From Myxococcota bacterium (GTDB taxonomy: Bacteria > Myxococcota > JAJVIH01), in the NCBI GenBank assembly GCA_022072125.1, contig JAJVIH010000070.1, forward strand, positions 1 to 41,780: a stretch of DNA of 41,780 nucleotides, read 5' to 3'. The stretch's first letter is position 1; each line of letters begins with the position of its first letter. Shown here in pieces: positions 1,176 to 11,115 of the stretch. The notes beneath the pieces were generated by a model. It was given only the letters and a program-made list of their open reading frames with translations. It was not told the DNA's origin and made no database searches. Both the position numbers and the translations under genes were made by a program.

Positions 1176-2255
1176 CTATTTGCCTTCGATCTTCTTCACC
1201 AGTTCGTTGGTGAGTTTCGCTGCTTCATCAAAGGCGATGAGCTTTTCGCCCTTCTTCACGGCGTCCAGGTCCTTCAGGAAATAGTCGGCGGCGTTGCGGT
1301 CCGGAGCGCCCGACGGATACAGGTGGGCGATGATCTTTGCAGCCAGGTCCGGGGCGTTGGCCTTGGCCCACGGCTCCACGGACTCCCAAAAGAGACGTGC
1401 TTCGATCAGGTACACATCGAGCTTCTGGTTCTTGCTCATGTCCTCGAATTCATACTGCACGCCATAGGCGAAGGCGCGCACCATCTCCTTTTCGATCATC
1501 TCCATAACGCCGTTGTATTCGGCGTGATCGGCGGGAACCTTCTTGTCAGCTGCTCCGCCGGTTTCCTTCTGGATGATGTCGCGGAGCCGGCGCATGCCGT
1601 CGAAAACCGTCTTGTTGATAATGACCTTGAAACGATCCTCGCGGGCGGCGGACATCTTGGCCAGACCCTTGGGATTGGCGCCGTTGAAATCCAGACCCCA
1701 CGTGCCAAAGGCTTCATCCAGCTTCGGCCCCGCGCGGGAGAAAAGCTCGTGATACACATAGTAGTAGAAGAAGGTCAGCAACAGTTTGTCGGCGGTCTGA
1801 CCCGCATAGGCGATTTCGGAATCCGACTTCGCCGCCATGCCCATCTGAATGGCGCTGCTGATGTGCTTGTCCAGGAAGGCCCCCACGTCAGCGGGGGCGT
1901 ATTTCTGATCGCCCTTGCGCGCGGCGACCTTGTTCTGCAGATCATTGGCCTGATAGGCGGCGAGAATCTGCTTGAAGATCTCCGCCGCGTTCTCGACCTT
2001 GGCTTCCTTGCGGATCTTGTTGATCTTCTCGTATTCGTCCACGCGCGCCTTCTGGACCGCCATATTGGATTCCGAGAAGGGCTGGTAGGCTTGGCCCGCG
2101 GCGCCGCCGGTTCCGGCGTCCGCAGTAGCTCCGCCGTCGCCCGCGCTGGCGTCGCTGGACGTTCCCGCATCGCTGGATCCGCTGTCCCCGCATGCGGACA
2201 GGGCCAGGATACTGGCGATCATCAGGGTCATTGAAATTATTCCGCGAAGTTTCAT
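1176..2255 (-). CDS. Helical lipoprotein of unknown function, last gene of the Fur-box operon
   Basis: The 359-residue protein begins at ATG 2255, which has AAGGAG nine bases upstream; the frame is open further upstream but without such a site. A signal peptide ends in a lipobox LSAC with Cys22, followed by a Gly/Ser/Asp/Ala linker to about residue 55. The rest is predicted mainly alpha-helical and rich in Lys, Glu and Ala. Conspicuous is an aromatic helix FFYYYVYHELF (residues 162-172) with His169-Glu170, and Glu-rich helices around 250-272 and 279-293 that could supply metal ligands. I do not recognise the family. It follows the gamma-carboxylase-like gene by 46 nt and shares its promoter with an imelysin, so a periplasmic or outer-membrane role in iron or metal handling is inferred from context only. 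Confidence 0.85.
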   Translation of the reverse strand: MKLRGIISMTLMIASILALSACGDSGSSDAGTSSDASAGDGGATADAGTGGAAGQAYQPFSESNMAVQKARVDEYEKINKIRKEAKVENAAEIFKQILAAYQANDLQNKVAARKGDQKYAPADVGAFLDKHISSAIQMGMAAKSDSEIAYAGQTADKLLLTFFYYYVYHELFSRAGPKLDEAFGTWGLDFNGANPKGLAKMSAAREDRFKVIINKTVFDGMRRLRDIIQKETGGAADKKVPADHAEYNGVMEMIEKEMVRAFAYGVQYEFEDMSKNQKLDVYLIEARLFWESVEPWAKANAPDLAAKIIAHLYPSGAPDRNAADYFLKDLDAVKKGEKLIAFDEAAKLTNELVKKIEGK

Positions 2256-2301: not shown

Positions 2302-3693
2302 TCAGCGATGGGCCAGGCGATCGTCCGGCCGTTCATGCATGGGTAAAATCCAGCGCGAAGGCGCCAGCGAAAATGGTTGCGCGGCCAAGTCCACGGATGA
2401 ATCCACCAGCGGCTGGCTGACGCGCCCGTTGAGCGAGACGCGCACCTGCGCGAATACCCTTGGGCGCACGCCAGCGGCCTGTTTTTCCCGTTCGGCCAGC
2501 CAGTGAGCGAAGCGGTGAATCATCGGCGGCGACGAGGACATCACGCGCGCTTGCATCGGCGTCAGGACCTCTTCGGGACTGACCCAGCGCTGGCGGCCGG
2601 TGACGGGATTGCGCACCACGAAATCCGCCTGCCCGGACTTCTCCATGATCATCACGTGCCACGCGAAGTTGAAGCCTTCCTCGGTCCACAGCAGATTGCC
2701 CGGATAGAGGTGATGGCGCAGCGGAATCAGCGCCTGCGCGGACAGGAAAACCGCCGCGGCGATGAATCCCCAGTGCGGCAGCGCCAGCGCGGACGCGGAG
2801 GGCGAGGCGGCGGCCTGTCCATGCGCTGTAACGGCGGCGGCGCGCGGCCCGCGGATGAAATTCCACACCCGCAATGGCCAGTCCGGCTCGAAGAACACCA
2901 GCACCAGCACCGTCATGATCCATGGAAACAATCCGATATTGAACAAGCCGCCGGTTATCAGGTGGAAAAGAATCACGGCTCCGTACGCGGGCAGGCGCGT
3001 GCGGCGGTTGAGCAGCCAGAAGGCGATGGTCAGGTCAAACAACATGCCCGCCCAACTCATCGCGAAGGCGGCGGCGGGCCAGGAAAACAGCTCGCCGATC
3101 AGCGGAAAATCCGTGCGCGCCTGCAACCAGGTCTGCAACGGCTCGGCGCGGAACAGCCAGTCTGACTTGATCTTGGCCGCTCCGGCGAAAAAGTAGACCA
3201 GGCCGAGTTGCGCGCGCAGCAGCGCCAGCGGCCAGAAGGGCATTTCCGGCGATTGTTCCCGGCGCTTGCGCCAGTTGTCGAGGGACCACACCCAATCGGC
3301 TGGCAGAAAGATCATCACGAACGCCGCCAGGCTCATGAAGTAATAGTGATTCAGGTAGTAGGTCTGATCGATCAGTTCAGCGTAGGTGAACAGCAGGAAA
3401 TACGCGGCCGCCGCGAGCCGGTAGAAAAGCCCCAGCGCGATGCAGGCCGCCGCCAACCCCATCACCGCGAAGTGGACGTACATGCCGATCCCGGGCCATA
3501 CCTTCACCCATTCGAATCCCGGGTAGGAAAAATGCATGGGCGGAGCGATGAACAACTCCTGAATCCACCCATTGGCGGCGAAACGGATGGCGGAAGCCAG
3601 CCCGATCAGCCCGAAGATGATCCGGAACGCCGCCAGCGACGCGCCGCTGACGGAGCGGTTCAACCACCGCATCACGCCATCATAATCAGTCAT
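2302..3693 (-). CDS. Vitamin K-dependent gamma-carboxylase-like HTTM membrane protein
   Basis: This is a 463-residue polytopic membrane protein. The N-terminal HTTM part (about residues 15-280) has several transmembrane helices. Recalled alignment with human gamma-glutamyl carboxylase (GGCX) is good at key places: YYLNHYYF around His116 corresponds to the NNHSYLYG region with GGCX His160, and FFAGAAKIKSDWL around Lys174 corresponds to the region with catalytic GGCX Lys218. A C-terminal part (about 325-450) includes WTEEGFNFAWHVMIM, RQRWVSP and the luminal-domain-like stretch seen in full-length carboxylases, so it is not just a minimal HTTM protein. GGCX converts protein Glu to gamma-carboxyglutamate, a metal ligand; bacterial homologues have no firmly known substrate. 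The gene overlaps the imelysin gene by 8 nt, indicating translational coupling. Confidence 0.82.
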   Translation of the reverse strand: MTDYDGVMRWLNRSVSGASLAAFRIIFGLIGLASAIRFAANGWIQELFIAPPMHFSYPGFEWVKVWPGIGMYVHFAVMGLAAACIALGLFYRLAAAAYFLLFTYAELIDQTYYLNHYYFMSLAAFVMIFLPADWVWSLDNWRKRREQSPEMPFWPLALLRAQLGLVYFFAGAAKIKSDWLFRAEPLQTWLQARTDFPLIGELFSWPAAAFAMSWAGMLFDLTIAFWLLNRRTRLPAYGAVILFHLITGGLFNIGLFPWIMTVLVLVFFEPDWPLRVWNFIRGPRAAAVTAHGQAAASPSASALALPHWGFIAAAVFLSAQALIPLRHHLYPGNLLWTEEGFNFAWHVMIMEKSGQADFVVRNPVTGRQRWVSPEEVLTPMQARVMSSSPPMIHRFAHWLAEREKQAAGVRPRVFAQVRVSLNGRVSQPLVDSSVDLAAQPFSLAPSRWILPMHERPDDRLAHR

Positions 3694-4819
3694 TGTCCTT
3701 CTCCAACACCGACACCGTGATTCCCAACAGCGAGGCCAGATCGGCCTGGAAGCGCGTATAAACCGCCTTCAGCGCGGCATAGAGCGTCTTGACTTTCTCC
3801 TTGTCCTCGGTCACCGCATCGTGCAGCGGCGTCTTGAGATCATCCATCGCGCGGAAAGCGGCGGCGAAATCCTGGGTCACCAGTTTGTCCACTTCCGGAT
3901 TGCGCTCGGCGATCAAATCCCGCAGTGATGGGGCTCCGGAGGACGGCGCTCCGCCATAAAGCAACTGCAATCCCTTGAGTCCGTATCGCAGGTCATCCAG
4001 CCCCGTGCCGCTGCGCCAGACATCCACGAGTTTGGGGTTGGGCTCCACACCGTCCCGAAGGCCGGAGGGGCGCCCCAGCATGGTGTTCGACAGCTTCTGC
4101 GCCACCATGATGTTGTGGTTCATCAGGTCGTCGTAGGCGTTCTGGATCAGTTTGTAGCGCGCGCTGCCATTGCCCGCCGCGGCCAGTTCGTTGGCGAAAT
4201 TTCCGCCCCCGGGAGCCCACTTCGCGGCGATGGACGCGGCGGTGGTCCGGTTGAATTTGGCGAGGGCGGTCAGATACTGGCAGCGGCGCGCCCCCGCGGT
4301 TCCGGTGAATTTTTCGAGCACGTTGGCGGGCTGCCCCGAATCGTAGAGAACATACTCGACCGCCAGAAACCCCTTTTTGAGCGCGGTCAGCGTTTCCATG
4401 TAGGTATCGCTGAACTCATGGGTCCCGCCGATTTCATCCTTCTCGATGCGCTCCGGATCGATGGGCGAACGGTCCAGCCTCGTCTTGGCGTCCATATCCA
4501 TCGCGGGGCCAAAGTGGAAGGCCCAGCCCTCGAACCAGGCGTTGCGCGATTGCCGCCAGGCCGCCCGGGCGGACTGGAGCGCAGCATCGGTGGGACCGGC
4601 GCACAACTTGCCTGAAGCGTCCTCCAGCACCTGGGCGCTGCTTTCCAGGTTCTTCCAGGAGGGCACAATCACGTCGTCCGCGAGACCGCGCAGCACGGCG
4701 TTGCGATCAATCACCGGTTTTTCGCTGCCGCACGCAGTGGTCCAGATGACCGCGGCGCTGGCGGCGGCGGCCGCGGCGACGCCAGCGGAAAGAAAACGCA
4801 GGGAAATGGTTGAAGGCAT
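3686..4819 (-). CDS. Imelysin-like (M75/IrpA family) exported protein, first gene of the Fur-box operon
   Basis: The 377-residue product starts at ATG 4819; an ATG further upstream would place the promoter inside the gene. The N-terminus is a hydrophobic Ala-rich signal with Cys30 in WTTAC, a weak lipobox. Imelysin features are present: RNAWFEGWAFHFGP (92-105), GFLAVEYVLY (150-159) and helical pairs along the length. Imelysin proteins such as IrpA and the M75 domain of EfeO are periplasmic iron-uptake components. The signature GxHxxE reads G150-F-L-A-V-E155 here, so the His is replaced by Leu, and iron binding through that motif is doubtful; HEF at 134-136 supplies a nearby His/Glu. Transcription is likely iron-repressed because the promoter contains a Fur box 60 bp upstream of the start. 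Confidence 0.85.
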   Translation of the reverse strand: MPSTISLRFLSAGVAAAAAASAAVIWTTACGSEKPVIDRNAVLRGLADDVIVPSWKNLESSAQVLEDASGKLCAGPTDAALQSARAAWRQSRNAWFEGWAFHFGPAMDMDAKTRLDRSPIDPERIEKDEIGGTHEFSDTYMETLTALKKGFLAVEYVLYDSGQPANVLEKFTGTAGARRCQYLTALAKFNRTTAASIAAKWAPGGGNFANELAAAGNGSARYKLIQNAYDDLMNHNIMVAQKLSNTMLGRPSGLRDGVEPNPKLVDVWRSGTGLDDLRYGLKGLQLLYGGAPSSGAPSLRDLIAERNPEVDKLVTQDFAAAFRAMDDLKTPLHDAVTEDKEKVKTLYAALKAVYTRFQADLASLLGITVSVLEKDND

Positions 4820-4870: not shown

Positions 4871-4899
4871 AAGATATTGAAAATGATTTTCATTGTCAA
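4871..4899 (-). promoter_or_regulatory. Sigma70-type promoter of the imelysin-carboxylase-lipoprotein operon
   Basis: On the minus strand a perfect -35 element TTGACA (4899-4894) is followed by exactly 17 bp and a -10 element TATCTT (4876-4871, four of six consensus bases). Transcription would begin near 4864, giving a leader of about 45 nt before ATG 4819. The spacer is the Fur box. Confidence 0.8.
4879..4897. promoter_or_regulatory. Fur box (ferric uptake regulator operator)
   Basis: The sequence GAAAATGATTTTCATTGTC matches the 19-bp Fur consensus GATAATGATWATCATTATC at 16 positions and keeps the central inverted repeat. It overlaps the -35 element and spans the spacer of the promoter, the classical position for iron-dependent repression. 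Confidence 0.88.
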
Positions 4900-8784: not shown

Positions 8785-11115
8785 TTACTTCTTCCTCGCC
8801 ACGGGCGGCGTGGTGGTTTTGCGGCGGGACGCCATCATCGCCGCGAGCTTCATTTTCATCTGATCGGCGATGTCCTTCTGCTGCGCAAGGATATCCTTCT
8901 TTTCGACGGGGTCGCTCACGAAGTTGTACAGGTTGTAATAATTGTACGACTCGCTCCATAACAGCTTGTAATCCCCCTCGATGATGGCCTTGCGGGATGA
9001 CCGCTTGGCGTCGGGCAACATCTCCGCGACGATGGGCGGATGCGGCTGTGCTTCCCCTCCGGAAAGATACGGCATCAGACTGACGCCGCGAAATTTTTCC
9101 TGAACTGGAACACCCAGAAACTCCAGGATCGTTGGAACAAGGTCCAGATTTGAGACATTGACCCCGCTGATGCGTCCCGGTTTCACTCCTGGCCCCCACA
9201 CCACCAGCGGCACGCGAATCTGATCATCGTACAACTGGTTGCCGTGCCACAGGTAGCCATGCTCGCCAAAGGCCTCGCCGTGGTCGGCGGAAAAAACAAT
9301 CAGGGTGTTTTTCGCCAGTTCGCCGCCCCGCACCTTGTCGAAAATTTCCCCCCAGTAGCGATCGGTGAAAAGGATTTCGTGATCGTAAATATCCACCCGT
9401 CCGGAACCAAATTTCTCGACGCCCTTGTGCTCCAGGAAGGTGTGATGGGGATCAAAATAATGGACGATGTAAAAGAAGCGCTTTTGATCCTGCATCCGGG
9501 CGTCCAGATAGCGCAGCGCCACCTTGTTGATATCCGGCGAGGTCACCTTGTTGAGCATGACCTTGTCGTCGGGATGGGTGACCGAGGTATCCCAGTCGTC
9601 GAATCCCTGGTTCATTCCGTACTGCGGCAGGAAATACCAGTGCGCAGCCACCAGGCCGGTACGCCACCCAGCGGATTGCAGCCATTCGGAAATGAACTGG
9701 TTGGCGGGCTGCACCACCGGCCACAGCGGCGCATCGCTCAGATCAATTTCGGACGGCCAGAGTCCGGACAGCATGGAGGGCACGCTCATCTTGGTCATTG
9801 GCGCGTTGGCGAAGGCGCGATCGAACACCACGCCTTCCGCCGCCAGTTCATCGAGTTTGGGAGAGGTTTTCCGCTTCGCCCCATAGGTGGACATGCGGTC
9901 GGCGCGCAGGGTGTCCACGATGATCCACACCACGTTGCGCGGCGGAACCGCCACGGCGGATTGCGTCGCGGGAGCAGACGCGGGCGCCGCCGTCAACACA
10001 GCGGGTTCGGGCGCTTCGAGGGTGACGGATGGCTCTTCGTCGCCGCCCAGGCAGTCATCATCGAGGCCGTTGCCAGCCACTTCCACCGCGCCGGGATAGA
10101 CCGCGCTGTTGTGGTCGTCGCAATCCCCGCCGGCAAAATAGCCCGAAAAACCGTCCTTGTCGGAGTCCGCGGCGCGCTGCAAGCCCATCAACACCCGGCT
10201 GGTGACGGCGGTATTCTCCAGCAACGCAGCGCGGACAGCCGCGTGGCCGCCCTCCTGATCCAGCCAGGTGGCGGCGCCATGCAGGGAGAACATCAGAACA
10301 ATGGCGGCGGCGGACAATGAACGCCCCAGGGTATGGGTCATCCAGTTGCGGTGCTGGCGCATCCGCTCAATCAATGCCCACGCCACCACCTGCGAGGTGA
10401 AAAACACCACCGCGTATACCAGCAGGGTCTGGTGGGCCTCATAGACAATCGCGAACTCATCCCAATAGCGCCCGACCACGAGGCCGATGCCCAGCGCCAC
10501 CAGACAAACCGCGTAGCCACACCATACGAACAGATTGGCCGGGGACATATACCGGGGAAGCCAGTCATCCAGCAGGCGCAGCCATCCGGCGAACAGGCGG
10601 CGCAGCGGCAGCCACAACCCGGCGGCGGCGGCAACCAGCGCCAACACCAACAATGCCAGCACGAAAGCGGCGAAATCCTTGTTCTTGAAGGATGTAATGA
10701 ACACCCGGTTGGCGGCGAAAACCGCCACGAAAAAACCGCCCGCGGCGGCGATCATGGCGCTGCCGCTGGCCGCCGCCTGCAATTGCACCTCTTTCGGACG
10801 GCGAAACAGACCGAATAACCAGGCGGCGCCAAAACCCTGGCGATCCAACTGCCGCAGGGCGACGCCCGCCAGCGCCTCCAGGGCGACAATGGGCGCCATG
10901 ACCACCGACGCGGCGCAAATCAGGTGAACGGCGATACGCGCCCAATCCCAGGGGTTGGTCAGGGACTCCGCCTGATCGCGCCACAGCAGCAGAAACTCGA
11001 CACCGGCCAGCATCCCGGCGGCGGCCAGCGCGGAGATTAGCAGCGAACGCAGGGGCCCGAACGCCGGACGGCTTTCCTGCCGGATATGAACGTGAGTCAA
11101 ACTGAGGGAGGACAT
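8785..11115 (-). CDS. Membrane-anchored sulfatase/phosphoethanolamine-transferase-fold protein with MopE-like insert
   Basis: This 776-residue protein has about seven transmembrane helices in residues 20-285. A Ca/Cu-binding MopE-like segment follows (317-360: DSDKDG, GGDCDDHN, YPGA, GNGLDDDCLGGDE). Its periplasmic alkaline-phosphatase/sulfatase catalytic domain spans about 393-740. Metal ligands are visible at NVVWIIVDTLRADR (Asp401) and VFSADHGEAFGEHG. The nucleophile region reads N-A-P-M-T441-K-M-S-V-P-S-M-L-S-G, so the CxPxR/SxPxR formylglycine signature of true sulfatases is absent; Thr441 fits the Thr nucleophile of LTA-synthase and phosphoethanolamine transferases. Modification of an envelope glycan or lipid is inferred. 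The ribosome site before ATG 11115 is poor, so the start could be slightly downstream. It leads a two-gene operon. Confidence 0.82.
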   Translation of the reverse strand: MSSLSLTHVHIRQESRPAFGPLRSLLISALAAAGMLAGVEFLLLWRDQAESLTNPWDWARIAVHLICAASVVMAPIVALEALAGVALRQLDRQGFGAAWLFGLFRRPKEVQLQAAASGSAMIAAAGGFFVAVFAANRVFITSFKNKDFAAFVLALLVLALVAAAAGLWLPLRRLFAGWLRLLDDWLPRYMSPANLFVWCGYAVCLVALGIGLVVGRYWDEFAIVYEAHQTLLVYAVVFFTSQVVAWALIERMRQHRNWMTHTLGRSLSAAAIVLMFSLHGAATWLDQEGGHAAVRAALLENTAVTSRVLMGLQRAADSDKDGFSGYFAGGDCDDHNSAVYPGAVEVAGNGLDDDCLGGDEEPSVTLEAPEPAVLTAAPASAPATQSAVAVPPRNVVWIIVDTLRADRMSTYGAKRKTSPKLDELAAEGVVFDRAFANAPMTKMSVPSMLSGLWPSEIDLSDAPLWPVVQPANQFISEWLQSAGWRTGLVAAHWYFLPQYGMNQGFDDWDTSVTHPDDKVMLNKVTSPDINKVALRYLDARMQDQKRFFYIVHYFDPHHTFLEHKGVEKFGSGRVDIYDHEILFTDRYWGEIFDKVRGGELAKNTLIVFSADHGEAFGEHGYLWHGNQLYDDQIRVPLVVWGPGVKPGRISGVNVSNLDLVPTILEFLGVPVQEKFRGVSLMPYLSGGEAQPHPPIVAEMLPDAKRSSRKAIIEGDYKLLWSESYNYYNLYNFVSDPVEKKDILAQQKDIADQMKMKLAAMMASRRKTTTPPVARKK

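Follow-up and report, generated by a model that had tools for sequence, protein, structure and literature searches.

What does a bacterial relative of human GGCX do, and which partner does it serve? Bacterial homologues of this vitamin K-dependent gamma-carboxylase have been known for about 20 years and, to our knowledge, have no agreed function. The question is raised here by contig JAJVIH010000070.1 of a Myxococcota bacterium (assembly GCA_022072125.1), analysed as one stretch of 41,780 nt that we call the window. An open reading frame (ORF) of 463 codons on its minus strand, with an ATG at 3693 and its end at 2302, encodes a protein that by family, judged from sequence and predicted fold, is a VKGC, and its gene lies directly downstream of an imelysin gene. 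We give about an even chance to the reading that this protein is a GGCX-type enzyme that faces the periplasm, depends on menaquinol and works for an imelysin/TonB operon of iron acquisition.

Pfam finds two domains in the window protein, HTTM (PF05090, 276.5 bits, residues 12-272) and VKGC_lumenal_dom (PF22777, 146 bits, residues 310-454), both with a cut-off of 27.7. Human GGCX is the top match of known structure (phmmer against PDB, E = 1.5e-41), with residues 7-452 falling on GGCX 51-505 and an overall identity of 25% in a 44-sequence alignment. An AlphaFold2 model, computed with the window protein and 42 relatives as input, has a predicted local distance difference test (pLDDT) of 93.7 and a predicted template modelling score (pTM) of 0.92; all 16 significant Foldseek matches to it in PDB are GGCX (E down to 6e-23, query template modelling score up to 0.86). 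The initial annotation, made from the DNA letters, had called the protein a full-length GGCX homologue with the C-terminal luminal-like part that many short HTTM proteins lack, and had proposed a structural model as the check. Domain matches, both searches and the model bear this out, and the HTTM-only relatives are without PF22777. The fold over residues 7-452 is shared with human GGCX (PDB 9bvk, 9l6r, 9wf2 and others), but the window protein stops near GGCX residue 505 and therefore has no Arch-like domain.

Residues were compared in an alignment of 44 sequences including human GGCX, with 42 bacterial sequences counted for invariance. It sets K174 against GGCX K218, the base for vitamin K hydroquinone (PMC12589487), and N115-H116 (H116 codon CAC at 3348-3346, minus strand) against N159-H160, which together with Y395 contact the Glu side chain in the same study. 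All three residues are invariant in the 42. The Lys174 and His116 pairings, first offered tentatively from a remembered alignment, are confirmed: pairwise hidden Markov model comparison, multiple alignment and fold search put no other residues at the K218 and H160 positions. The naphthoquinone side is likewise retained. GGCX F286, F294, F299, H160, V210, W223 and M401 are assigned to this group (PMC12589487), and the window protein keeps the vitamin K pocket as V166, A170, W179, G216, F243, F251 and F256 (GGCX V210, A214, W223, G259, F286, F294 and F299). In the full-length bacterial alignment the equivalents of K218, H160, N159, W223, F286 and F299 are invariant, and F294, A214 and G259 are mostly retained. 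Only 13 columns are invariant in 43 full-length sequences, among them N115, H116, K174, W179, F243 and F256.

Short HTTM proteins (PF05090 without PF22777) have the HTTM domain and the conserved Lys in common with the window protein, but they give no lumenal domain match and the N-H motif is mostly missing: Lys stands at the K218 position in 11/11 alignable sequences, His at the H160 position in 2 only. Because HTTM-only proteins keep it, this Lys is an HTTM-wide feature and was discarded as a marker of genuine carboxylases; what distinguishes the full-length type is N115-H116 together with the quinone pocket.

The larger result is the gene context, which points to a partner next door. The imelysin and VKGC genes share 8 bp, at the stop of the former and the start of the latter, and in 30 of 43 other fetched VKGC loci, drawn from several phyla, an imelysin gene is again directly upstream on the same strand; one locus (L016) has two imelysin genes beside VKGC on the opposite strand. 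Genes that also recur nearby encode a TonB-dependent receptor, DUF4856, or a second imelysin with a di-haem peroxidase (the peroxidase gene in eight of the fetched loci), and some loci show the order imelysin-DUF4856-VKGC-TonB receptor. We then surveyed 195 genomes of the phylum, scoring VKGC by PF22777 and IPPA-type imelysin by a profile match to the C-terminus. Full-length homologues are frequent (72/195), as are IPPA-type imelysins (72/195); 68 genomes have both, 4 have each alone and 119 have neither (Fisher p ~3e-42, kinship not corrected for). An IPPA-type imelysin lies just upstream in 69 of 88 VKGC places. In the four VKGC-only genomes the gene is at a contig end (G023, G039), split between frames (G099) or without its HTTM half (G108). 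In the genera g21, g42 and g45, genomes without VKGC are generally without imelysin and vice versa. The broken VKGC genes of G099 and G108 (L123, L124) sit in genomes that lack an IPPA-type imelysin, which is what one would expect of an enzyme that is useless without it.

The operon also carries a sign of iron control. The Fur-type palindrome TGAAAATGATTTTCA ahead of the imelysin gene occurs once in the window, against 0.03 matches expected, and in locus L048 an identical box precedes the first imelysin ORF by about 520 bp, which is suggestive only. The operon is probably iron-controlled. In the Fur/iron table for Riemerella anatipestifer (PMC5609570), RAYM_09779-09794 are grouped as a TonB receptor, a 'vitamin K-dependent gamma-carboxylase', an imelysin and a hypothetical protein. 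This was the only paper in our literature search to name the VKGC-imelysin pair; subscription papers were mostly outside its coverage, and the link may be published. Known imelysin operons (PA4370-4373, EfeUOB-like; PMC3143127) share the IPPA-type imelysin, the di-haem peroxidase and Fur control with VKGC-type operons, but the available part of that paper mentions no carboxylase partner, the word 'carboxylase' occurring 0 times in it. The third gene of our operon, downstream of VKGC, encodes a helical lipoprotein. A single close relative of it occurs in the phylum, at a locus of like kind (G001). The AlphaFold model of this lipoprotein (pLDDT 49) was too poor for use; comparison of its family profile placed it near DUF4856 instead (hhalign probability 94-96%). 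The same literature search, with the same coverage, found no mention of DUF4856.

Imelysin-linked VKGCs differ from the branch that contains human GGCX. In a FastTree phylogeny GGCX groups with bacterial copies that are not imelysin-linked (support 0.97), and the window protein falls among the linked ones. The unlinked copies (from Planctomycetota, and those standing alone within the window's phylum) have the domains and catalytic residues of the window protein but, unlike it, carry M401 and N290, as human GGCX does. Two positions separate the groups (Table 1), the linked group including a few contig-end members whose own imelysin link is not visible; six intact sequences fetched later agree, four linked ones with V/T and two lone ones with M/N. 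Both positions have been located in GGCX (PMC12589487): M401 at the wall that divides the quinone pocket from the Glu pocket, N290 within the isoprenyl tunnel. The subfamily change therefore lies at the active site. The nesting of human GGCX among bacterial VKGCs suggests that the animal enzyme may have had a bacterial source. Its nearest tree neighbour is a Pirellulaceae sequence (L022, support 0.86). Elsewhere, a Planctomycetaceae genome has two VKGC genes in tandem (L019, 5953-9077).

As for the quinone, the host's genome has menB (462 bits, over the cut-off) with an adjoining UbiA prenyltransferase gene, so it probably makes menaquinone, menB being the men gene searched for. The futalosine route was set aside, PF02621 not being found in this genome.

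From these elements we infer a topology, a catalysis, an iron role and a substrate as follows. The protein would sit in the inner membrane with its active site and lumenal domain toward the periplasm and bind menaquinol in the conserved hydrophobic pocket. K174 would deprotonate the menaquinol and start GGCX-type chemistry, in which O2-driven quinol oxygenation yields a strong base, while N115-H116 would hold the substrate. The enzyme would act as an accessory of a Fur-regulated, iron-type operon made of an IPPA-type imelysin, a DUF4856-like lipoprotein and often a TonB-dependent receptor. An acidic residue of an exported partner, imelysin being the first candidate, would most likely be modified and a metal site thereby made or tuned.

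Several observations weigh against this reading. The Glu pocket is incomplete: N159 and H160 alone are kept, and L114, F341 and V384 stand at N158, Y395 and R436 (N158 and R436 contact the substrate backbone; PMC12589487). K217, assigned to coupling in that study, H404 and the C99-C450 disulfide of GGCX are not conserved either, M401 and N290 are replaced by V and T, and the majority of GGCX Glu- and propeptide-contact residues are not retained. Gamma-carboxylation by the window protein is a putative activity. A Leptospira VKGC relative is reported, by Rishavy and colleagues in 2005, to have epoxidase activity with carboxylase activity undetectable. VKOR (PF07884) gave no match in the host's genome (95.8% complete), which leaves the recycling of quinone epoxide without explanation; a vitamin K cycle with VKOR was dropped as a candidate, and other VKGC genomes vary. 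The Gla domain (PF00594) gave no match, but neither did it in the control genomes. Finally, of the four genomes with IPPA-type imelysin alone, three have DUF4856 and a TonB receptor, and VKGC is therefore not essential to the imelysin system. Since the VKGC-only cases have their explanations and imelysin persists without VKGC, VKGC looks like an accessory dependent on the imelysin system.

The main rival, which we consider unlikely but worth keeping in view, is an uncoupled quinol oxygenase or epoxidase. Menaquinol would react with O2 by way of K174 with no carboxylation, and the role would be a redox one, for example O2 or Fe(III) chemistry near imelysin. A kept quinone pocket and base beside mostly changed Glu contacts, the di-haem peroxidase genes, the missing VKOR match and the activities reported for the Leptospira relative would all fit such an enzyme, but a pure quinol oxidase would have no need of the lumenal domain that is retained, nor does it account for the invariance of the substrate-side N159-H160 pair. 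We regard it as improbable that VKGC is instead an electron donor, with deprotonated menaquinol reducing imelysin-held Fe(III) and no covalent modification: the iron-type operon and the quinol site speak for it, but the sequence shows no apparent haem or metal ligands through which electrons could pass, and the GGCX-type N-H pair is left without a role. Lastly, the protein might have no enzymatic role and help in the membrane as an assembly factor or chaperone of the imelysin and DUF4856 lipoproteins, its catalytic residues being a relic. This would fit the close co-inheritance with imelysin but is very improbable, as a relic would drift and the catalytic and pocket residues are instead among the few invariant columns.

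If the enzyme does modify imelysin, the C-terminus is a candidate site. All 31 VKGC-adjacent imelysins (the window's included) have an acidic D-x-D at or within three residues of the C-terminus, with end motifs of DND, DGD and similar in the IPPA type, and the tail is missing from 8/8 first (IrpA-type) imelysins of two-imelysin operons. According to PMC3143127, the corresponding residues are disordered in the IPPA crystal structure (3pf0), and the motif is therefore probably not kept for folding. The imelysins of the four genomes without VKGC retain the tail, as does the Psychrobacter protein 3pf0, which rules it out as proof of a substrate and makes it a property of the imelysin type, hence a candidate substrate only. 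We speculate, and hold it quite unlikely in this specific form, that linked VKGC modifies the disordered D-x-D-COOH of IPPA-type imelysin, for example by Asp carboxylation, to give a metal-binding tail for iron acquisition. Were this true, imelysin would be a bacterial vitamin K-dependent protein and its tail a new target motif. Strong co-inheritance with one imelysin type, the shared Fur-type operon and the two-residue signature at the quinone/substrate wall name a partner, point to iron starvation as a growth condition and define a subfamily. The operon context hints at a purpose for bacterial GGCX-type enzymes, and the search for a modified target is open to mass spectrometry.

Table 1. Features of the VKGC operon and residues discussed in the text (window coordinates).
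Feature	Position	Strand	Basis or remark
VKGC/GGCX-type membrane protein, 463 aa (HTTM and lumenal domain)	2302..3693	-	ORF, Pfam, phmmer, AlphaFold2, Foldseek
K174 codon (AAG), aligned with GGCX K218 (catalytic base)	3172..3174	-	Invariant 42/42
N115-H116 codons, aligned with GGCX N159-H160	3346..3351	-	Invariant 42/42
V347 codon, aligned with GGCX M401	2653..2655	-	V in 33/33 of linked group, M in 9/9 of GGCX-like clade (bacterial members)
T247 codon, aligned with GGCX N290	2953..2955	-	T in 30/33 of linked group, N in 9/9 of GGCX-like clade
IPPA-type (GxxxxE) imelysin lipoprotein, PF09375	3686..4819	-	Pfam; lipoprotein start at 4819, ORF readable from 4948
Imelysin C-terminal D-N-D, near-invariant acidic end of this imelysin type	3689..3697	-	Alignment
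Perfect 7-1-7 Fur-type box TGAAAATGATTTTCA	4878..4892		~60-75 bp upstream of imelysin ATG
Helical lipoprotein (MKLRG...LSAC), divergent DUF4856-like, third operon gene	1176..2255	-	Listed ORF runs to 2336

Around the operon, a plus-strand ORF at 993-2234 was taken as mere antisense of the DUF4856-like gene. The minus-strand ORF at 3-977 reads by eye like an acyl-CoA carboxylase carboxyltransferase subunit, and at 8785-11115, also on the minus strand, Pfam finds a member of the sulfatase family that carries a metal-binding motif of the MopE type.
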